Notes under the pieces: model-generated
Told to the model about the DNA's origin: nothing
Databases searched by the model: none
The model's input: the letters and a program-made list of their open reading frames with translations, nothing else
Program-made: the position numbers and the translations under genes
Assembly: GCA_012840485.1 (NCBI GenBank)
Contig: DULG01000046.1
Location: forward strand, 1-44,287
Direction of reading: 5' to 3'
Origin: Clostridia bacterium
GTDB lineage: Bacteria; Bacillota; Thermoanaerobacteria; Thermoanaerobacterales; Thermoanaerobacteraceae
DNA: 44,287 bases
Shown: positions 20,347 through 39,479 of the stretch, one piece after another
How positions within the stretch are numbered: the stretch's first letter is position 1
Layout: each line of letters opens with the position of its first letter

Positions 20347-21150
20347 TCAGACTTTGCCTTTTTCTTTCAAAATCTTATGTATACTATACCTACTCACCCC
20401 AGCAATAGAAGCAATATCTTTAATTGAAAGTCCGGTTTTTTCTCTGTATTTTTTTATTAAGTCATGCCATTCTTTACGTTTTTTAATTTCCAGATTTTCT
20501 ATATCTTTAATCCCAAATTCCATCGCCATTTCTTTAAATAACTCTTTGGCTTCTTCCGTACTCATTTTTTCTTCTTCAATGTCGATAAAAACTTCAGTGC
20601 CTTCTGTCTGCTCCATATATTTCTTAAACTGTTCTATAGCTTTCTTTTTATCATCAGAGAAAATGCCTAAAATCAACTCTGTATCTACAATTTGACACAT
20701 TTTATCATTATCGTTAAGATAACAGCTATAACTGCTCCACTTATAATCAGAAACTTTTTTCACTAGTCCCGCTTTTACCGGATTTTGATGAATGTATCTT
20801 ACTAATGCTATAACGTAACTCTCATCTTCAACTGGCTCACTTCTAAACCTATCCTGAAATAAATGCCCTGTCCTATCGTATTTTTTATTAAAATAAGAAG
20901 CATAAATTCCTGCAATCCTCTTAATAGAACTTGACAAATCTTCATTGCCTTCCTTGATCATCAAATGAACGTGATTGCTCATAAGACAAAAAGCAGTTAA
21001 ATAAAACTTCCCGCCTAGCTTTTTCTCTGCCAATATTTCTATAAAGTGCTTTTTATCCTCATCACTTCTGAATATATTTTTCTTTTCATTTCCCCGCAAC
21101 ATCACATGATAATATCCGCTCTTGCTTTTAACTCTTGACTTCCTAGGCAT
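20347..21150 (-). CDS. REP-associated tyrosine transposase (RAYT, Y1/HUH family)
   Basis: A 267-residue protein. The N-terminal ~170 residues are the Y1-transposase fold of the IS200/IS605 type: SGYYHVMLRGN, the HUH-type motif MSNHVHLMI, and the RAYT hallmarks YFNKKYDRTGHLFQDRF and LVRYIHQNPVKAGLV that hold the candidate catalytic tyrosine region. The C-terminal ~60 residues add a helix-turn-helix (GLSIKDIASIAGVSRYSIHKIL), an extension found in some Firmicute RAYTs. RAYTs nick single-stranded palindromic REP repeats and are thought to spread them. This gene is flanked by inverted REP copies (20290-20319 and 21176-21206) and sits between the exporter permease and the kinase genes. The frame is intact. 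Confidence 0.92.
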   Translation of the reverse strand: MPRKSRVKSKSGYYHVMLRGNEKKNIFRSDEDKKHFIEILAEKKLGGKFYLTAFCLMSNHVHLMIKEGNEDLSSSIKRIAGIYASYFNKKYDRTGHLFQDRFRSEPVEDESYVIALVRYIHQNPVKAGLVKKVSDYKWSSYSCYLNDNDKMCQIVDTELILGIFSDDKKKAIEQFKKYMEQTEGTEVFIDIEEEKMSTEEAKELFKEMAMEFGIKDIENLEIKKRKEWHDLIKKYREKTGLSIKDIASIAGVSRYSIHKILKEKGKV

Positions 21151-26025: not shown

Positions 26026-26120
26026 TTACTATCCCTCTAATCTTATAATTTTTCCCTCCTTTTTAAAACGATTATATCATAATAAAACAAAAATTTCCAC
26101 ATCATCTATTTTTAAAAATT

Positions 26121-26158
26121 CAGACAAAGCAGACAAAGGGGACGGTTCCTCTTGTCCG
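26121..26158 (+). repeat. REP-like palindromic repeat, copy 5, with duplicated left arm
   Basis: The core AGACAAAGGGGACGGTTCC is preceded by an extra CAGACAAAG (26121-26129). The right arm is TTGTCCG. Together with copy 7, 13 bp away and inverted, it forms a BIME-like pair. Confidence 0.92.
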
Positions 26159-26171
26159 TTTATTTTGATTT

Positions 26172-26201
26172 TCAGACAAAAGGAACCGTCCCCTTTGTCT
26201 G
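26172..26201 (-). repeat. REP-like palindromic repeat, copy 7
   Basis: TCAGACAAAAGGAACCGTCC with right arm TTTGTCTG, inverted to copy 5. The two copies can also pair with each other into one long hairpin. It begins 12 bp downstream of the U-run that ends the predicted structured RNA. Confidence 0.92.
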
Positions 26202-26213
26202 TGTTATGCCAAT

Positions 26214-26582
26214 AAAAAAGTAAGGCTCGTAATGGTCTTCGCTTCAGCCAGTACAAATCTCTTCATACCTCACTTAAAAGGCAAGGTATTGCAAAACCCA
26301 TACTGACCTATGCTCGACTATTATAGATACCTTAGAAACCTTATGCACTTTGCATAAGACCTCCAGTCTAAGTACATGACGTACTTCGACCTGCGGCACC
26401 TATAATAGTCTTAGCTCGACTATAATACATCCTTTTTAGCCTTAAAATTAAGGCTCTACATGGACATATTATAATCTGCCCGCCGACTAGCATCCGACCT
26501 TTTGATCGAATACCAATCTTTGGCCGACCATCACAGAACTTGCGTCCTGTGATGATCTTGGCTCGACCATTACGAACCTTAC
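26214..26582 (-). ncRNA. Large structured RNA of about 370 nt, class not recognised
   Basis: On the minus strand these helices form. P1: 26582-26565 with 26237-26220, 18 bp. P2: 26557-26526, a 14-bp stem capped by a GCAA tetraloop. P3: 26518-26504, 5 bp. P4: 26476-26462 with 26432-26418, 15 bp, enclosing a 7-bp hairpin near 26452-26435. P5: 26410-26395 with 26331-26316, 16 bp, enclosing CUUAUGCA-AAG-UGCAUAAG and a second small hairpin. P6: 26308-26301 with 26253-26246, 8 bp, enclosing 26289-26283 with 26271-26265. All positions in P1, P2, P4, P5 and P6 pair on the minus strand, with about 10 G-U pairs; on the plus strand the same positions are C-A mismatches. That asymmetry identifies the transcribed strand. 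U6 (26219-26214) follows the P1 3' strand. All reading frames are broken by stops. It does not match tmRNA, RNase P, 6S or T-box hallmarks known to me. Confidence 0.75.
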
Positions 26583-26585
26583 ACT

Positions 26586-26591
26586 ATTATA
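26586..26591 (-). promoter_or_regulatory. -10 box of the structured-RNA gene (candidate)
   Basis: A perfect TATAAT on the minus strand ends 3 nt before the first base of helix P1 (26582), so transcription would start at, or a couple of nt inside, the P1 5' strand. The -35 region is A-rich with no TTGACA-like match at 16-18 bp, so the promoter would need an extra contact or is weak. Confidence 0.45.
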
Positions 26592-26715
26592 TTGCCCTTT
26601 TTGTCTTTTTATATTCATTTGTTTTTAAAAAAATTTAAAAAGGAATGAGATACCCACTTTTTTGGTTTAAGCTAAAGCTCTTAGTGAGAACAAAGGAACT
26701 GTACTTCATTTTAAA
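26592..26715. other. Intergenic stretch between the structured RNA and the UPF0173 gene
   Basis: About 125 bp of A/T-rich DNA. I see no ORF and no convincing terminator for the upstream metallo-hydrolase gene, so read-through into the RNA region is possible. Confidence 0.4.
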
Positions 26716-27360
26716 TTATACAGAATACTGATAATTTAAAGCAACTACTCTTGGTTCCCCTTCTAAATCTTCTTTCTTTACATCCATTTCTGTGGATAAA
26801 ATCTTTTTGCCACCTGTCATATCCAAAAAGTTATCCACAGTATCAATAGGGAAATTAATAAACTCCGTTTTATAGTGCATTGGTATGGTTATTTTAGGCT
26901 TTAACTGGTTCATCACTTCTACCGCTTGTTTTGCATCAATTGTATAATAGCCTCCAACAGGAATGAGTAGAACATCAACTGGTCCTATTTCTTCAACTTG
27001 CTTTTCTGTTAAAACATGTCCCAAATCTCCCATGTGACAGACTCTGATTCCATCAATATCAAAGACAAAAACTATATTTTTACCTCTTTTTGCACCATGC
27101 TCGTCATCGTGAAATGTATTTACACCTTTTATGTTGATACCTTTTATATTATGTTCTCCTACTGTGTCAACAATATCAAAGTTTCCCTTTACCGCCTTAA
27201 AATAATTGTGGTCAAAATGGGAATGAGAAGATGTCACAATGTCTGCCTTCACATTTGGCATAGGGTACCCAACTGATTCATCAAAAGGGTCTGTGACAAT
27301 GACCGTACCCTTCTCAGCTGTCAACTTAAAACAGGAATGACCCAACCACTTTATATTCAT
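26716..27360 (-). CDS. UPF0173-type metallo-beta-lactamase-fold hydrolase
   Basis: A 214-residue metal-dependent hydrolase of the YtkL/UPF0173 family. The N-terminus WLGHSCFKL and the metal motif SSHSHFDHN (HxHxDH) are diagnostic; further ligands are His in VCHMGDLGH, and the C-terminal PMHYKTEF gives the last histidine. The fold is that of beta-lactamase/RNase Z enzymes; no physiological substrate is established for the family. It follows the MutS-like gene by 33 bp on the same strand and has an AGGAGG ribosome-binding site. Confidence 0.92.
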   Translation of the reverse strand: MNIKWLGHSCFKLTAEKGTVIVTDPFDESVGYPMPNVKADIVTSSHSHFDHNYFKAVKGNFDIVDTVGEHNIKGINIKGVNTFHDDEHGAKRGKNIVFVFDIDGIRVCHMGDLGHVLTEKQVEEIGPVDVLLIPVGGYYTIDAKQAVEVMNQLKPKITIPMHYKTEFINFPIDTVDNFLDMTGGKKILSTEMDVKKEDLEGEPRVVALNYQYSV

Positions 27361-32533: not shown

Positions 32534-32731
32534 TTAGAAGGTGGTATTTCTGTTGTTATAATTTTCTACAAGCATTTTTTCTGCTTTTTCGATTGCAAGT
32601 TTTACAAGATTACCGCAATTTCTAGAAGAAACACTTCCCCAACCTTCCTTCATTACTGTGTCGTAAACGCCGAGTTCTTTAGCCAACTCATATTTAAGCT
32701 GGTCAGACATTAAGCCTCTGCGTCTACCCAT
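32534..32731 (-). CDS. Alpha/beta-type small acid-soluble spore protein
   Basis: A 65-residue DNA-binding protein that coats and protects spore DNA. Both family signatures are present: [13 protein letters not shown], which holds the germination-protease (GPR) cleavage region, and [23 protein letters not shown]. The start is the ATG after GAAGGAGGG. A CAAAATA box on the minus strand (32768-32762), with ACATA 17 bp upstream, is a candidate forespore (sigma-G-like) promoter. It follows sleB-ypeB by 65 bp. Confidence 0.95.
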
Positions 32732-32761
32732 TTTTATTCCCTCCTTCTTTTGCCCTACAAT

Positions 32762-32790
32762 TATTTTGCACTTTAAAAGCACTTTTATGT
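32762..32790 (-). promoter_or_regulatory. Candidate forespore (sigma-G-like) promoter of the SASP gene
   Basis: ACATA (32790-32786), 17-bp spacer, CAAAATA (32768-32762) on the minus strand. The -10 is the same type as before sleB and gerA. Sigma-G -10 boxes are CATNNTA, so CAAAATA is one mismatch away. Confidence 0.4.
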
Positions 32791-32796
32791 TATGGA

Positions 32797-34131
32797 CTAC
32801 ATGGTCAAATCTCCATGTTCTGTTTTTATAACCTTTAAAATTTTTTCTTCATTTCCATTTAATGCATTTATATACACGTAAAATGTATCACCTTTGTATG
32901 TTCCTTTAAATTCATAGGCTAATACTTCTCTTCCTCCTTCTAAAGGAATAAGAGTCAATTTTATATCTTCTATCTTTAAATTTTTGCTTACCTTTTCTTC
33001 TGCTTCTTTTGCTGTAAGCTTTGGCTTTTCTAATTTTCTATCCGTGTGATTCATGTAGTAAGCTGTAGCATCAAAACCTATTATGTCTCCGTTGTCAAGC
33101 GCCACCTTTACCTTAACAATGTCTGGATATAAATAAACCTCATTTTGCACAGGGACAAAGTTAAATTGTATGCTGCCATCTGCTTTCATAGAATAAGTAC
33201 TTTCCATGTTTGCAAACCCATGCTTTTCTAAAAATTTTTTGGCATATTGCAAAGCTTGAGAAGGAGAAATATTTACTTTGCTTACCGTTCTTTGATCCAT
33301 CAGCCACACAACATGTCCACCTTTTCTGCTGACATTTATATACACTGACAGCTTACCAGGTGACTTTAACTCCACCCCATAGGCTTTTATTTTTCCATTG
33401 TTAGGACTGTATTTATTTTCAGACTCAATAGCTTTTCCATAAAAGTCTCTTGCTATTTGAACAGCTCTATCATAAGAAATTTCTGACCCGGTCAAACCCT
33501 TAGGAGCAGCTTTTGCCAAATTTTCAGAAAAAGGTCCGTCGTATATCAAAGTAGGATAATTTGTCATAGTCTGGTTTACACTGTTCATTTTCACATTTAA
33601 AATTTTGCTATCAACTTGCGCCATTTTCTGTGACCCTTGCTTCCTTAAATTCCCTAATTCATATCCTCCTTGAATTTTCTTTCTCAAATCTTGTAAATTT
33701 TTCCCCAAAAATACTGCATAATTATGTAACTTGGTAATTGTCTCTAAATCCTGCTGAGATAATTCTTGACCTGCAGCAGCCTTTTTTGTAAGACTATAGG
33801 CATAATCTCCAATTTGCGTTAAAAACTTGGAAGTATTGTCTATCTCTGGCTGTCCAATTGGCAATTGATTTAGGTGTTCTTGCCCTGAAAAAGCTTCTCT
33901 CCATATTTCATCTAAAATTGGAATAGTAGTTTTATTTGAAGAAGCTACCATGAGTTTTCCCATAGAAGTTTCAATATTTTCTACATTAGAAACCAATTGA
34001 TAAAAAGACCTATCATATTGAGCCTGCAAATACCTATGATAGGATATTTTTTCTATATACTGCCTATATCCCCATGCTCCCAATATCAACACTAAAATCA
34101 AAGCTAAAGCCGTAAATCCCCTTTTTATCAT
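32797..34131 (-). CDS. ypeB: Germination protein YpeB
   Basis: A 444-residue spore protein with an N-terminal transmembrane anchor (about 5-23), a coiled-coil-rich helical region to about residue 210, and three PepSY-like repeats in the C-terminal half (for example [17 protein letters not shown] and [10 protein letters not shown]). YpeB is needed for assembly and control of the cortex-lytic enzyme SleB. It lies 9 bp downstream of sleB; the pair is conserved in spore-formers. Confidence 0.95.
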
Positions 34132-34140
34132 TTTTTCACC

Positions 34141-34851
34141 TCACCTCGCAAATATATGACTACCTATTTGTGTTATAATTGGCCTGTTGAATATCCAGTA
34201 ATTTGTCACCCTCATGGCATTGTAATAATACAAAGCGCCACCACTGGGGTCCCATCCAGCGATAGCATCCCTTGCTGCCATTATACTTTCCCTTGTCGGT
34301 GGCAACCACATTTGGCCGTCTTCTACAGCAGAAAAAGCTCCCGGTTGAAATATAACATCGGCTATAGTTTTGGGAAACCTTGGGTCTCTAACCCTATTCA
34401 TCACAACAGCTCCAACTGCAACTTTTCCAATATACGGTTCTCCTCTTGCTTCCCCATTTATAAGCATTGCTAAAAGGTAAACATCGTCATTTGTGGTGAC
34501 AGAGGAAGAAGCCTGATAAGCCGCTAAATCTTGAGCAGTAGTTGTAAAACCTAAAGCTGCTTTTGTATCATCATCTACAATACCTGTAACATTAAGCCCG
34601 TTATATGCTTGAAATTTTCTAACTGCCAGCCACGTTCTAACCCCAAAAAATCCATCTACAGCTCCCTTATAATATCCCCAATCTTTAAGCCGTGCTTGAA
34701 CTTTGGCAACATCACTACCTGTATTCCCCCAATAAAGGTTAGACATAGCTACCTCAGTCAAATCATAAGCTGCATACTCAAAAACTCCTGTAACAAAAAT
34801 AACCAATATAGCTATTATAATTTTCATTCGCACAATGAAATCTAACTTCAT
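34141..34851 (-). CDS. sleB: Spore cortex-lytic enzyme SleB
   Basis: A 236-residue lytic transglycosylase that degrades spore cortex peptidoglycan during germination. After an N-terminal transmembrane/signal segment (about 10-28) comes a peptidoglycan-binding domain (about 38-95, GNTGSDVAKVQARL and GFFGVRTWLAVRKFQ), then the Hydrolase_2 domain (about 120-236) with LLAMLINGEARGEPYIG, which holds the catalytic Glu, and FQPGAFSAVEDGQ. AAAGGAGG precedes the ATG. Confidence 0.95.
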   Translation of the reverse strand: MKLDFIVRMKIIIAILVIFVTGVFEYAAYDLTEVAMSNLYWGNTGSDVAKVQARLKDWGYYKGAVDGFFGVRTWLAVRKFQAYNGLNVTGIVDDDTKAALGFTTTAQDLAAYQASSSVTTNDDVYLLAMLINGEARGEPYIGKVAVGAVVMNRVRDPRFPKTIADVIFQPGAFSAVEDGQMWLPPTRESIMAARDAIAGWDPSGGALYYYNAMRVTNYWIFNRPIITQIGSHIFAR

Positions 34852-34882
34852 TTTGAACCTCCTTTTCTTTGGTGTTTGTAAA

Positions 34883-34911
34883 TATTTTTTGTAGTAGTAA
34901 AAGTATTATAC
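34883..34911 (-). promoter_or_regulatory. Candidate forespore (sigma-G-like) promoter of sleB-ypeB
   Basis: GTATA (34911-34907), 15-bp spacer, CAAAAAATA (34891-34883) on the minus strand, about 35 nt upstream of the sleB ATG. Geometry and boxes are almost the same as before the gerA operon. In Bacillus sleB is transcribed by sigma-G. Confidence 0.45.
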
Positions 34912-34933
34912 GTGATTTTTAACTTAAAATAAT

Positions 34934-34955
34934 AAAGCGCCCTTTAAGGCGCCTT
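34934..34955 (-). terminator. Terminator of spoIIR
   Basis: AAGGCGCC pairs with GGCGCUUU on the minus strand (one G-U), loop of 6, followed by ATTATTTT. It overlaps the spoIIR stop. Confidence 0.75.
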
Positions 34956-35579
34956 CCATGCCATTTTAAATTTATTGTAATATTTCTCCATAATTTCTGC
35001 TATTTTAAATTTAACTGGAGGTTTCCCCTTTTTTATAAGGTCTACATCCTCTTGAGATAAATACTTTACTACTTCTTCTGCGGTCTGTTCATCTGTAAAG
35101 CCATGAGTAGCATCAATAAAACAAAGAGGAGGAAATATTACACACCACCAATTTTTCCCTTCTCCATTACCTATTATTACCTTAAGTGCAGTATATCTAC
35201 CTGCGGGAAGAGTAATGGTTCCATAATATCGCGTTGGAAAATCAAATGTACCATAGGCAATTTTTACATTGTAATTTTTCCCTTCTTTATGAATTATTTC
35301 TTCTGCAACTATTTTAATTTCTCTAATATTTTGTTTTATAATTCTTTCTGAATCTTTTACATCTTTTACACCATCAAATTTAGGCGTCAAATCCACAAGT
35401 ATAGCATCTCTCACCTTAAGCTTTAATTGTTGGTCTTCTTCTGAATCACTGTTGGCAATAACATGAAACCTTATTAACTTATGAGATAAGTTTTCTTTTC
35501 TTAAATTTGTAGATTTAACTCCATAAAAATTCCCTATTCCTATGATTGCTAATAAAAACACTGCAATTAATTTTTTCAT
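34944..35579 (-). CDS. spoIIR: Stage II sporulation protein R
   Basis: A 211-residue secreted signalling protein made in the forespore; it triggers SpoIIGA processing of pro-sigma-E in the mother cell. The N-terminal signal segment (about 2-17) is followed by the family hallmarks LIRFHVIANSDSEEDQQLKLKVRD, GTFDFPTRYYG, PAGRYTALKVIIG and GKNWWCVIFPPLCF. The start is the ATG after GGGGGA; an ATG 5 codons upstream is itself the ribosome-binding site. It lies 70 bp downstream of gerAC. Confidence 0.96.
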   Translation of the reverse strand: MKKLIAVFLLAIIGIGNFYGVKSTNLRKENLSHKLIRFHVIANSDSEEDQQLKLKVRDAILVDLTPKFDGVKDVKDSERIIKQNIREIKIVAEEIIHKEGKNYNVKIAYGTFDFPTRYYGTITLPAGRYTALKVIIGNGEGKNWWCVIFPPLCFIDATHGFTDEQTAEEVVKYLSQEDVDLIKKGKPPVKFKIAEIMEKYYNKFKMAWKAP

Positions 35580-35649
35580 ATTTTTATCCCCCAATATAAA
35601 CTTTTGCTTTACTTAAAGTATTAACAGAAATATTAAAAAATATACTTCT

Positions 35650-36801
35650 CTACCTGAAGAGTCCTATCCTTCTCACATGAGAAGTAACATCTACTTTTAT
35701 CTCTACCTCGGGGAAAATTTTACCCCAGTCTTTCCTCACCTTTTCCCATAAACTCGGATGATATTTTTCAATATAATCTCCTATACCTAGCATGTCTACT
35801 TTCAATTCTTTTTGAAATCTATTTATAGCTTTTTGTGTCATCTTCTTTATTTCGTCACTAGTTTTTCTCTCTATGACGTTTAACAAATCACCTTTCATCA
35901 TTTCTCCATGCTTTTCAAAAGTATATTCTGTTACATCCCCTTCCACATCTAATTTAACTCTATATATAATTTTCCCATTTTTCTCTTTGACAGAACGCCT
36001 TCTTATCACATTGGAAATATTAAAAGGAACTTTTATATCTTCTTCATCACCGGGCACAGTAATAGTCACATCTCCGCCTTTTACAAGCTCAGTCAGCCAC
36101 ATATAGCCCATGTTTTCATCATCTTCCATCCAACCTGCCAATTTATAATCCTTGATGATAGCCGATCCTGCTATTTTAATTTCGTTTTTTCCAGCAATTA
36201 TTTTTGGAATTATGGCATTCCCATTTGTTTCATGGAATGATTTAGTAATTTTGTTATAATCAATTTTAGGAAATATTGAAGTTCTATTATAATGCTTAAA
36301 TATATCCCGAATATAAGCCCCTGTATTGGGTTCCATCTCATATTTTTTAAGAAGAATATCCTGAGCTTTTTGAGGAGTCACAAGAAGATATACCTTGCGA
36401 CTGAGCTCATAGCTTCTGTCAAGAGAATCTAAAACTTCTTGAAACCTATCCCTGTTCTCCACTACATCTTTGCCAAAGATAATAGCTTGTGTATGACCTA
36501 AATACAATGCTTTATCAATTCTTGTACTTATATGTCGGGAAGCAGAAAAAATCGTATCAGCTACTTCTGAAACAGCAAAACTGGGTTTTTCACTGCCTCC
36601 TCCTCCACCACTAGTACCCTTTGCAATTTGAGCAGCATTGGGAAACTGAAAAGTCACTACATATCTTTTGTTGGAAGAGGACAAATCTATTCCAATTGCC
36701 ATCACAAAAGCTCTATCTTCTATTTCAATTTTGTCCCAACAACCTGTCAAAATCATAGAAATTAGAACCCATAATATCACTATTTTAAGTTTTTTCTTCA
36801 T
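35650..36801 (-). CDS. gerAC: Germinant receptor subunit C, Ger(x)C lipoprotein
   Basis: A 383-residue lipoprotein with lipobox LTGC (Cys21) followed by the family motif WDKIEIEDRAFVMAIGID. It is the outer-face subunit of a spore germinant receptor in the inner spore membrane. The start is ATG 36801, inside the end of gerAB (17-nt overlap), so translation is coupled. The ligand is not predictable from sequence. Confidence 0.94.
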   Translation of the reverse strand: MKKKLKIVILWVLISMILTGCWDKIEIEDRAFVMAIGIDLSSSNKRYVVTFQFPNAAQIAKGTSGGGGGSEKPSFAVSEVADTIFSASRHISTRIDKALYLGHTQAIIFGKDVVENRDRFQEVLDSLDRSYELSRKVYLLVTPQKAQDILLKKYEMEPNTGAYIRDIFKHYNRTSIFPKIDYNKITKSFHETNGNAIIPKIIAGKNEIKIAGSAIIKDYKLAGWMEDDENMGYMWLTELVKGGDVTITVPGDEEDIKVPFNISNVIRRRSVKEKNGKIIYRVKLDVEGDVTEYTFEKHGEMMKGDLLNVIERKTSDEIKKMTQKAINRFQKELKVDMLGIGDYIEKYHPSLWEKVRKDWGKIFPEVEIKVDVTSHVRRIGLFR

Positions 36802-37894
36802 CACTATCACCCGATCTTTTAACTTTTAAAAGGATAAATAATAGTATTGGCAATATAGCTATAAAAAATACTGACATATATTGGGAAACATAACCCGCAT
36901 ATTTATAAACTGTTACAATAGAATCAGGAATTAAAGCCATCAAATACATTATAGGAACTGCCGGTAACACAAAATAAGAATGTTCTCTAGTTTTTAAAAG
37001 TTTTGAAAAAGTCAATACAGCAAAATAGTAAAAAGAATATATAGAAGAAAAAATAGTAAAAGTCCATATTCCCATTACAATTCCTTCTACATTTTCTATG
37101 AAAAATACAGGAAAATTAATGGATTTAATGAGGGTCAAAAAAGGCCATAATTGTTCCTTTGTCTCTTTATACCCAAATATTCCAATTACAAAAAAAGTTA
37201 TATACATATAAAAAAGCATCGTGGAAATTATTGCTGCATTAACGCCTTTTTTTAACCTTTTTGTATCAATCACATAAGGAAAAAGTAAATAAAGTATTTC
37301 AAAACCTACAAAGCTATAAGTGGTAAAAAGCATGCCTTTAAAAAATTTAACTAACGAAATCCTCATAAATGGGAGGAAATTACTCAAATCTATATCTGAC
37401 ATGGCTGGCAAAAAAAGTAGTACTAGTGGAATAACTATTATAGGGAACAATATCTCTGACATTCGCGCAATTGGTTCAAGCCCATACCTCACTAAATAGG
37501 CAGAGGCAAAAAGCATTGTTATAATTATTGTCTCAATAGGGGTGCTTGGCAACAGATATATTTTTAAAACTTCCCCAAAAATCCTCACATCAAGACTTAC
37601 AAATATAGTAAAGTAAAAAACAAGTACAATGCTTATAAGAATAGAAATAGGCTTCGTCACAAGCTTAGCAGAATACTCAACAAAAGTTTCTGTAGGAAAT
37701 TTAGAAGACAAATACAGTATCATTCTGGCAAAAAAAAGAGAAGCAATTCCTCCTGCAAATACAGCTATAAGCCCATTGGGTCCTACTTCTTTCGAAACAT
37801 CTGCAGGAAGGCTTAATATTCCAGCTCCTACCATAGTAGTGAAAAGCAATATTGATACTTGATTTGCAGAAATTTTATCATTATTTTTTATCAT
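36785..37894 (-). CDS. gerAB: Germinant receptor subunit B, amino-acid-permease-like
   Basis: A 369-residue, ten-helix protein of the GerAB branch of the APC superfamily (N-terminal VSILLFTTMVGAGILSLPADV is the unwound helix-1 region; YGLEPIARMSEILFPI is typical of the family). It probably binds the germinant, usually an amino acid. The start is ATG 37894 after AGGAGA, within the last 14 nt of gerAA. Confidence 0.94.
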   Translation of the reverse strand: MIKNNDKISANQVSILLFTTMVGAGILSLPADVSKEVGPNGLIAVFAGGIASLFFARMILYLSSKFPTETFVEYSAKLVTKPISILISIVLVFYFTIFVSLDVRIFGEVLKIYLLPSTPIETIIITMLFASAYLVRYGLEPIARMSEILFPIIVIPLVLLFLPAMSDIDLSNFLPFMRISLVKFFKGMLFTTYSFVGFEILYLLFPYVIDTKRLKKGVNAAIISTMLFYMYITFFVIGIFGYKETKEQLWPFLTLIKSINFPVFFIENVEGIVMGIWTFTIFSSIYSFYYFAVLTFSKLLKTREHSYFVLPAVPIMYLMALIPDSIVTVYKYAGYVSQYMSVFFIAILPILLFILLKVKRSGDSDEEKT

Positions 37895-39479
37895 TACCGT
37901 CTCTCCTATCATCTTCTATGCTTTCAATCTTTTCTCCTCTTAAATCTCTCATCTTTCTCCTGTCAGGAGTATTCAAAATTTCTGGTCTGTTTTTGAAATA
38001 CATTATAGGAGCTTTTATTAAAGTATCCGCTAAGTCGCTTATGTCTATTTCAACAAAAGGTGAAAGATAAGGAACTCCAAAGCTTTTCAAAACAACTAAA
38101 TGGGTGAGAAGTATCATGAACCCCAGCATTATGCCATACAAGCCAAAAACAGCTGCTAAAATCATAAAAGTAAATCTCAACATTCTAAAAGCAATAGCAG
38201 CACTATAATTCGGAATTGCAAAGGAAGCCACTGCAGTTACAGCCACAACTATTACCATCAGTGGACTGACAATTCCAGCTTGGACAGCCGCCTGACCTAT
38301 AATAAGTCCACCCACAATCCCAATAGTTTGTCCTATAGGTACAGGAAGCCTCACCCCAGCTTCCCTTAAAAGTTCAAAAGTTGCTTCCATAATCAAAGCT
38401 TCAAAGAAGGCAGGAAAAGGTATACCTTGCCTTGTAGCTGCAACATATAAAGTCAATTTTGTTGGTATAAGACCGGGGTGATAGGCTGTAAAAGCTATGT
38501 AGACAGCTGGTGAAATCAGTGCTACAATTGCTGCAAGAAATCTCAAAATCCTCAAAAGAGAAGATATCATCCATCTTTCATAATAATCCTCTGAAGATTG
38601 AAAAAGAGTAGCAAGAGTAGTTGGTATTATTAAAGCAAAAGGAGTATTATCCGTCAAAATTGCAAGCCTTCCTTCTAATAAAGAAGCTGCAACCTTGTCG
38701 GGCCTTTCTGTGTTCAATATCTGTGGAAAAGGGGAATGCCAGTCCTCTTCAATCAATTGTTCTATGTATCCACTTTCAAAAACACCATCTATTTTTATGT
38801 TTTTCAATCTTTCCATCACTTTATTCAAAACATTCCTATCGACAATGTCCTCTACATAAAGAACCGCAACATCGGTGTGGGTCCTTTCTCCAATCTGAAT
38901 CTGCTTTACCTTTAAGTTGGGATCTCTAATCCATCTCCTTACAAGAGCAGTGTTAACCCTTATTGTCTCTGTAAACCCTTCTCTCGGTCCTCTTACAACC
39001 GTCTCTGCCTCAGGAGGGGAAATTGACCTCATCTGCCATCCTTTACTAGAAATGATGACTATTTCAGGAGAACCATTAAAAAGCAAAGCAGTGTCTCCAC
39101 TCAAAATTGACAAAATACACTTGTCTAAATCAGTAATCTCTTTTATGTCTCCTCCAGTTATAGTCCCTTTCTTTATAACCTCATACAAATTCCCCTTTAT
39201 CTTTTCAATAGAAGGGTTTGCTTGCCTTGAATCCAAAAGTAAGGAATGAAGTACATGGTCATTTATAAGGTCTTTATCTACAAGACCATCTATAAACACA
39301 ATTGCAAGATTATACTGCTGGTTTTCCCCTACCCAAATATCCCTATATATGACGTCATCGCAATCTTTTAATTTATTTTTGATGTAATCTAAATTTTGTT
39401 TAAGACTTGGTGAAGAAGGCATACCATCTTTCTTTTTTCTGACCTCTTTTTTGCCAAATATTTTATCAAAAAAACCCAT
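37881..39479 (-). CDS. gerAA: Germinant receptor subunit A
   Basis: A 532-residue protein: soluble N-terminal domain to about residue 290 with VRGPREGFTETIRVNTALVRRWI, a membrane domain with five or so helices containing TLYVAATRQGIPFPAFFEALIM and PVPIGQTIGIVGGLIIGQAAV, and a basic C-terminal tail. GerA-family A subunits form oligomeric channels in the spore inner membrane. It starts 1 nt after the small upstream membrane protein gene. Confidence 0.96.
   Translation of the reverse strand: MGFFDKIFGKKEVRKKKDGMPSSPSLKQNLDYIKNKLKDCDDVIYRDIWVGENQQYNLAIVFIDGLVDKDLINDHVLHSLLLDSRQANPSIEKIKGNLYEVIKKGTITGGDIKEITDLDKCILSILSGDTALLFNGSPEIVIISSKGWQMRSISPPEAETVVRGPREGFTETIRVNTALVRRWIRDPNLKVKQIQIGERTHTDVAVLYVEDIVDRNVLNKVMERLKNIKIDGVFESGYIEQLIEEDWHSPFPQILNTERPDKVAASLLEGRLAILTDNTPFALIIPTTLATLFQSSEDYYERWMISSLLRILRFLAAIVALISPAVYIAFTAYHPGLIPTKLTLYVAATRQGIPFPAFFEALIMEATFELLREAGVRLPVPIGQTIGIVGGLIIGQAAVQAGIVSPLMVIVVAVTAVASFAIPNYSAAIAFRMLRFTFMILAAVFGLYGIMLGFMILLTHLVVLKSFGVPYLSPFVEIDISDLADTLIKAPIMYFKNRPEILNTPDRRKMRDLRGEKIESIEDDRRDGNDKK

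Follow-up and report, generated by a model that had tools for sequence, protein, structure and literature searches.

A conserved stand-alone RNA of repeated rods and pairing linkers behind a forespore-type promoter in spore-forming Bacillota

The locus and the parts of the RNA

The window, that is, the whole stretch of 44,287 nucleotides analyzed here from a clostridial genome of the Thermoanaerobacteraceae, carries on its minus strand, at 26580-26222, a stand-alone structured RNA that holds the near-identical 7-nt linkers to which the initial annotation had drawn attention. Upstream of it lies a putative promoter (26616-26585) that is of the sigma-F/sigma-G type by resemblance and consists of GAATA (26616-26612), GG and CAATATAATA (26594-26585); the same arrangement recurs, at a near-fixed distance, upstream of most homologues, and the transcript is expected to start near the 5' strand of the closing helix P1 (16 nt, 26580-26565). 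Linker L1 (GAGCCAA, 26564-26558) then leads into the hairpin arm P2 (26557-26526) and L2 (GGCCAAA, 26525-26519) into arm P3 (26518-26485). L3 (GGCGGGCA, 26484-26477) precedes arm P4 (26476-26418), which in the source genus is composed of the P4a rod, an internal loop and a short P4b hairpin. L4 (GAGCUAA, 26417-26411) is followed by arm P5 (26410-26316), in which a three-way junction separates the P5a and P5b rods, and L5 (GAGCAUA, 26315-26309) by arm P6 (26308-26247), in which an internal loop separates P6a from P6b; both of these arms end in a GNRA cap in most homologues. Finally, L6 (UGAAGCGAA, 9 nt, 26246-26238) joins P6 to the P1 3' strand (26237-26222), and a T-run directly past P1 (26219-26214) is the likely end of the transcript, given the hairpin and T-run that come after P1 in many homologues. 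The fold and covariation both support the arms P2 to P6 and both strands of P1, and the minus-strand fold as a whole (376 nt) reaches -184.9 kcal/mol, against a mean of -95.75 kcal/mol for shuffled sequences (z = -15).

The four 7-nt linkers (L1, L2, L4 and L5) do lie where the initial annotation had placed them, with GUC before each and with GAUC, GAUU, GACU and GGUC, respectively, after them. This is more than chance would give, the linker pattern stated there being met about once per 950 bases on either strand of the whole window. The longer gap of 27 nt proposed between P3 and P4, on the other hand, arose from a mis-paired P3: because this arm is a hairpin of 15 bp (26518-26504 with 26499-26485), the linker that follows it measures 8 nt. 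The sixth linker, L6, had been overlooked.

A long inverted repeat (AAAGGGGACGGUUCC..., 26130-26204) lies immediately downstream of the RNA, and GGGGACGGTTC stretches like it come after the RNA in four other loci (L004, L005, L007 and L122). The window also contains an ORF (20347-21150) that presumably resembles a REP-associated transposase.

Homologues, covariation and the hub

Of 61 related genomes, 24 contain the RNA or a part of it according to blastn. When 398 sampled genomes of the phylum were searched with a covariance model built on the P5 arm, 153 of them, representing 107 of 266 genera, proved to carry the RNA; the same model gave no match in 95 kb of loci for small acid-soluble spore proteins (SASP) taken from carrier genomes. 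A pattern scan of genome contigs returned 35 stretches, the titles of which include Moorella, Pelotomaculum, Desulfofundulus, Desulfoscipio, Sporotomaculum, Fervidicola, Thermovorax, Thermoanaerobacter and Caldanaerobacter, and one of which is titled as a deltaproteobacterial MAG. A full-length profile built from 11 sequences matches all 35 of these stretches and 74 of 75 further covariance-model regions, 70 of them end to end; of the remaining regions, four are matched in part and one (L181) has no profile match. A mobile or phage RNA was rejected on the collections searched, since blastn found no match to the RNA in 50,697 phage records or in 72,556 plasmid records and the exact pattern did not occur in viral contigs. 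Some genomes hold more than one copy: close same-strand pairs are seen in Sporotomaculum, Pelotomaculum and a Firmicutes MAG (L071 683-1596; L066 218-2613; L056 1321-4340) and three copies in G406 (L102-L104), and a partial second copy of about 107 nt of P4-P5, 87% identical and apparently a fragment (L025 1501-1614, on contig 6 of G003), stands apart from the full-length copy that this genome also holds.

The alignments support a structure that is selected as RNA. Among 39 sequences of less than 85% identity, 97.0% of the cells at 153 consensus pairs are standard, double changes occur at 111 pairs, and G-U outnumbers A-C by 1383 to 43. The larger alignment of 106 non-redundant sequences comprises 152 pairs and 15,686 cells, 95.0% of which are standard, compared with a mean of 73.8% and a maximum of 74.3% over 100 shuffles. 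Sliding the partners by 1-3 columns lowers the figure to 32-43%, a comparison biased in favor of the structure, which was derived from the alignment on which it is tested. Double changes are found at 133 of the 152 pairs, and the great excess of G-U over A-C (3660 to 185 cells, about 20:1) fixes the strand as the RNA strand and led us to reject a DNA element such as a repeat or cruciform.

The length of the linkers is conserved as well. In 70 full-length homologues L1, L2 and L4 are always 7 nt and L3 always 8 nt, while L5 is 7 nt in 68 and L6 is 9 nt in 67. In a wider set of 151 homologues, restricted to matches that span the profile nearly end to end, the same lengths are found for L1 in 145, L2 in 141, L3 in 149, L4 in 148, L5 in 134 and L6 in 126. 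The initial annotation had conceded that linkers of variable length or sequence in homologues would make the regularity accidental; since the lengths are near-constant in both sets while the helices covary, the regularity stands, although not everywhere. The chief departure is seen in a divergent group (L143-L145, L161, L162 and L173) whose L5 and L6, GAACGAAC-like and GCAAGGUA-like, are each of 8 nt, so that the hub is built differently on the side of P6.

Covariation extends into the linkers themselves. Of the 172 pairs of linker positions with a canonical combination as the most frequent one, 13 reach 90% canonical or more and show at least one double change. Counting only sequences with linkers of the usual length (82 to 101 of the 106 for the pairs quoted here), base 3 of L2 and base 5 of L3 are canonical in 98 of 98 sequences with 21 double changes, base 5 of L4 and base 2 of L5 in 92% with 16, and base 3 of L5 and base 6 of L6 in 98.8% with 8. 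On this comparative evidence, L2-L3, L4-L5 and L5-L6 form conserved pairs, which rules out the view of the linkers as unpaired spacers. L1 probably pairs with L4, a case that rests on few changes: base 3 of L1 and base 4 of L4 are canonical in 101 of 101 sequences with a single double change. An additional G in L4 (GAGGCUAA; three sequences) faces GCC in L1, and one in L1 (GAGGC...; two sequences) faces GCC in L4, so that in either linker the added G is met by a third C of the partner. The additional G in L4 that is matched by L1 is a feature of the RNA of the three f48 genomes (L098, L109 and L175).

The regular modular junction suggested in the initial annotation is thus supported and, at the same time, refined, because the linkers pair with one another. 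Given these conserved linker-linker pairs, the best interpretation of the six-way junction is a pair of four-way junctions that a short L1-L4 helix connects. In the model that we favor, P1, P5, P6 and the L1-L4 bridge would form the outer junction, and the bridge, P2, P3 and P4 the inner one; the bridge is its weakest part.

Promoter, gene neighborhood and link to spore formation

The upstream regions of the homologues have in common G-N-A-T-A, followed after about 17 nt by a -10 element of the form GG-N-C-A-T-A-A-T-A. We collected 82 distinct upstream regions and reduced them to 64 non-redundant ones, all of which were kept in the counts, including two that are visibly mis-anchored (L040 and L048) and several others shifted by a few bases. 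With general consensus strings as the reference for every sigma factor, sigma-G-type matches with at most one mismatch are present in 36 of the 64 regions (5.2% of shuffles) and sigma-F-type matches in 14 (1.1% of shuffles). None of the 64 contains a sigma-A match with up to two mismatches, and a promoter of this kind was rejected. In Clostridium difficile, the sigma-F and sigma-G promoters are described as closely alike; those of sigma-F have a conserved G ahead of the -10 element, and those of sigma-G a conserved A downstream of it (PMC3789822). A matrix derived solely from the RNA promoters gives a median score of 8.6 for 30 SASP upstream regions, compared with 3.5 for 22 other genes (p = 1e-5) and 5.4 for shuffled SASP regions, and 15 of the 30 SASP regions exceed the 95th percentile of the other genes; the SASP set consists of the 30 listed SASP places for which loci were available, with guessed starts, and the negative set of 22 is small.

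Downstream of P1, TTTT occurs within 14 nt in 42 of 106 sequences and within 60 nt in 73. No neighboring gene is common to the RNA beyond single lineages, and clusters of neighbors appear within lineages only, which rules out a partner gene adjoining the RNA. The near-fixed promoter, the terminators after P1 and the lack of a common neighbor show that the RNA is a stand-alone gene of its own.

The genomes that carry the RNA are those of spore-formers. SpoIVA is encoded by 336 of the 398 genomes, and the RNA is present in 149 of these, compared with 4 of the 62 SpoIVA-negative genomes (Fisher p = 1.3e-9, kinship being ignored); 60 of the 62 are classed as negative by their absence from the SpoIVA list, and the other two are not RNA carriers. 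Of the four SpoIVA-negative carriers, three score above the cut-off for sigma-G; the remaining one, a genome of 61% completeness, is the only one of the 153 carriers to lack both SpoIVA and an over-cut-off sigma-G. SASP genes were found in all 14 carriers tested. Conversely, 187 of the 336 SpoIVA-positive genomes have no RNA match, and the RNA is therefore not needed for spores in general. Seven class-mates (f4/g7), which we take to be Caldicellulosiruptor, encode SpoIVA and lack the RNA; absent spore genes were accordingly dropped as the cause of its absence there. In the three genomes of family f48 (G080, G327 and G388) spoIVA lies within a few hundred bases of the RNA on the opposite strand. 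In the window itself, a spore gene cluster occupies the minus strand at 32534-39479, 6-13 kb from the RNA gene, and comprises a SASP-like ORF (PF00269 at 32573-32704), YpeB, SleB, SpoIIR and a GerXC/permease/GerXA germination receptor cluster. Taken together, the resemblance of the promoter and the association with spore formation point strongly to a probable expression in the forespore.

Repeated rods, candidate roles and known RNAs

The helices of the RNA are uniform in length, and nine of them hold 15-16 bp in most of the 106 sequences; the 5' strand of P5a is 16 nt in all 106, and the P1 strands are 16 nt in 105 and 106, respectively. They are also alike in sequence. Within one RNA, identity between the outward strands of the six proximal helices (P1 being one of them) amounts to 50.8%, as compared with 27.2% after shuffling and 24.5% out of register. 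The three distal helices are 49.5% identical to the inward strand (27.3% when shuffled) and 30.0% identical to the outward one, and hence are taken as inverted copies. Judged by these identities, the nine helices, each of 15-16 bp, represent a single rod in variant form, which is inverted in three cases. In a similar vein, the covariance model of the P5 arm also matches other arms, with 60 matches in 28 loci, of which 28 are the P5 arm itself. The initial annotation had proposed an origin by duplication of an arm-plus-linker unit, and the pattern of repetition (51% strand identity, inverted distal copies and matches across arms) agrees with it, but convergent selection for one rod fits the repetition equally well. 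In all six proximal helices the outward strand carries G at position 1 in 98% of cases and at positions 11-12 in 74% and 92%, and these repeated positions could represent a repeated recognition site.

Considering that the nine rods all repeat a single duplex with variations, a scaffold is the most likely mechanism, and we would assign a probability of about 0.6 to the reading that this stand-alone forespore RNA is a multi-site scaffold for several copies of one partner. In this reading, a structured RNA that acts in trans and measures about 360-440 nt from P1 to P1 would be transcribed in the developing forespore from its sigma-F/sigma-G-type promoter and would stop just past the closing stem. 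It would fold into a hub with six rods of 15-16 bp, three of which (P4, P5 and P6) are extended by an inverted second rod, and the near-identical linkers, by pairing with one another, would set the geometry of the hub. Near-equivalent duplex sites, spaced as on a ruler, would thereby be offered to several copies of one partner, which may be a forespore protein or another copy of the RNA, at a stage that may be spore maturation or dormancy. The binding of repeated protein subunits put forward in the initial annotation is compatible with such a role, and our searches returned no partner protein or target of the RNA. As a tentative extension, one could picture an endospore structural RNA, a nine-rod scaffold made in the forespore on which many copies of a protein, or of the RNA itself, assemble into an ordered particle that is kept in the dormant spore and is widespread in anaerobic and in thermophilic spore-formers.

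Other readings of the same features have to be weighed against the multi-site scaffold. In the forespore, the RNA might instead assemble with itself alone and form a ring, cage or lattice held together by its GNRA loops or by arm strands. The loops of P5b and P6b are GNRA in 82 and 85 of the 106 sequences while those of P2, P3 and P4b vary, all arms have near-complementary strands in common, the hub is pseudo-sixfold, and OLE, ROOL and GOLLD offer a precedent (PMC12286853). Against this, neither intermolecular contacts nor receptors for the GNRA loops were identified, and cognate strands pair at 96.3% compared with 68.0% for non-cognate ones, so that an exchange of strands among the arms, while possible, is not favored; we regard an RNA-only oligomer as doubtful. 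A forespore sRNA that binds mRNAs would share the forespore-type promoter and find its precedent in Bvs196 (PMC9147052), but nearly the whole RNA is taken up by long covarying helices, the linkers are paired and the variable loops of P2, P3 and P4b provide no evident conserved single-stranded seed, all of which makes a base-pairing regulator unlikely.

A housekeeping or stress RNA with no tie to the spore could owe its promoter likeness to AT-rich promoters and its SpoIVA link to shared ancestry, and it is true that the association ignores kinship and that SpoIVA is common in the sample. The complete lack of sigma-A-like promoters, the ability of the RNA promoter matrix to single out SASP promoters and the solitary, incomplete carrier genome without SpoIVA and an over-cut-off sigma-G render this explanation more unlikely still. 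Least probable is a ribozyme, or a repeat or cruciform acting at the level of DNA: large size, near-invariant junction bases and abundant inverted repeats would suit one or the other, but the 20:1 ratio of G-U to A-C reveals selection on one strand as RNA, and the gene has a dedicated promoter and terminator.

Comparison with catalogued RNAs points to a family of its own. Rfam 15, which we take to include OLE, ROOL, GOLLD, raiA, 6S and tmRNA among its families, gave no match in the window at the gathering threshold. With E values up to 5, the region 26100-26720 yielded matches only to the neighboring inverted repeat and a short upstream stretch, and none inside 26222-26580; in 20 homologous loci, a search at E values of 0.5 or less yielded nothing but tRNA and chance matches away from the RNA. 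The CsfG RNA, of about 200 nt, differs in structure from the RNA described here and is set apart by description only. For CsfG of endospore formers, control by sigma-F and sigma-G in the forespore has been reported (cited in PMC9147052), and Bvs196/S547 of Bacillus is, like the RNA of the window, a stand-alone structured RNA, for which forespore control by sigma-F and mainly sigma-G and binding to the spo0A and sspN-tlp mRNAs are reported (PMC9147052). Bvs196/S547 is 294 nt long, and the available text of that source reports no six-way junction for it; here too the distinction is one of description only (PMC9147052). OLE, ROOL and GOLLD are described as large, elaborately folded and conserved bacterial noncoding RNAs of poorly understood function, with multiway junctions and possible oligomers (PMC12286853), and the RNA of the window resembles them in its large, elaborate, conserved fold and multiway junction. 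It differs from them in having no Rfam similarity, in being a chromosomal gene with a forespore-type promoter and in its uniform, repeated 16-bp rods. Unlike ROOL and GOLLD, which are carried by phages or prophages, it is unmatched in the phage, plasmid and viral collections, and its junction joins six helices, in contrast to the five-way junction domain of OLE, the model of which does not match it. The raiA motif (ModT) is a structured RNA widespread in Bacillota (PMC11706538), but no Rfam family matched the RNA in the window or in the 20 homologous loci. Our literature searches, which covered sources other than preprints and reached all but several key papers, returned no description of the RNA, so that an earlier one is possible, and no motif in the available text of a 2010 survey of 104 candidate RNAs could be tied to it (PMC2864571). 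As far as these searches and our knowledge reach, no known family shares the rod-and-hub plan, and we therefore rate the RNA as new, an apparently uncatalogued family that falls into the very wide class of large structured noncoding RNAs.

In this RNA the idea that junction linkers pair among themselves can be put to the test, and a natural RNA whose many rods repeat a single duplex is of use for RNA structural biology and design. The spore state has so far been explained mostly by proteins and small molecules. With a ruler-like structured RNA that has a forespore-type promoter and occurs in more than one third of the genomes sampled from the phylum, the spore would gain a component made of RNA.
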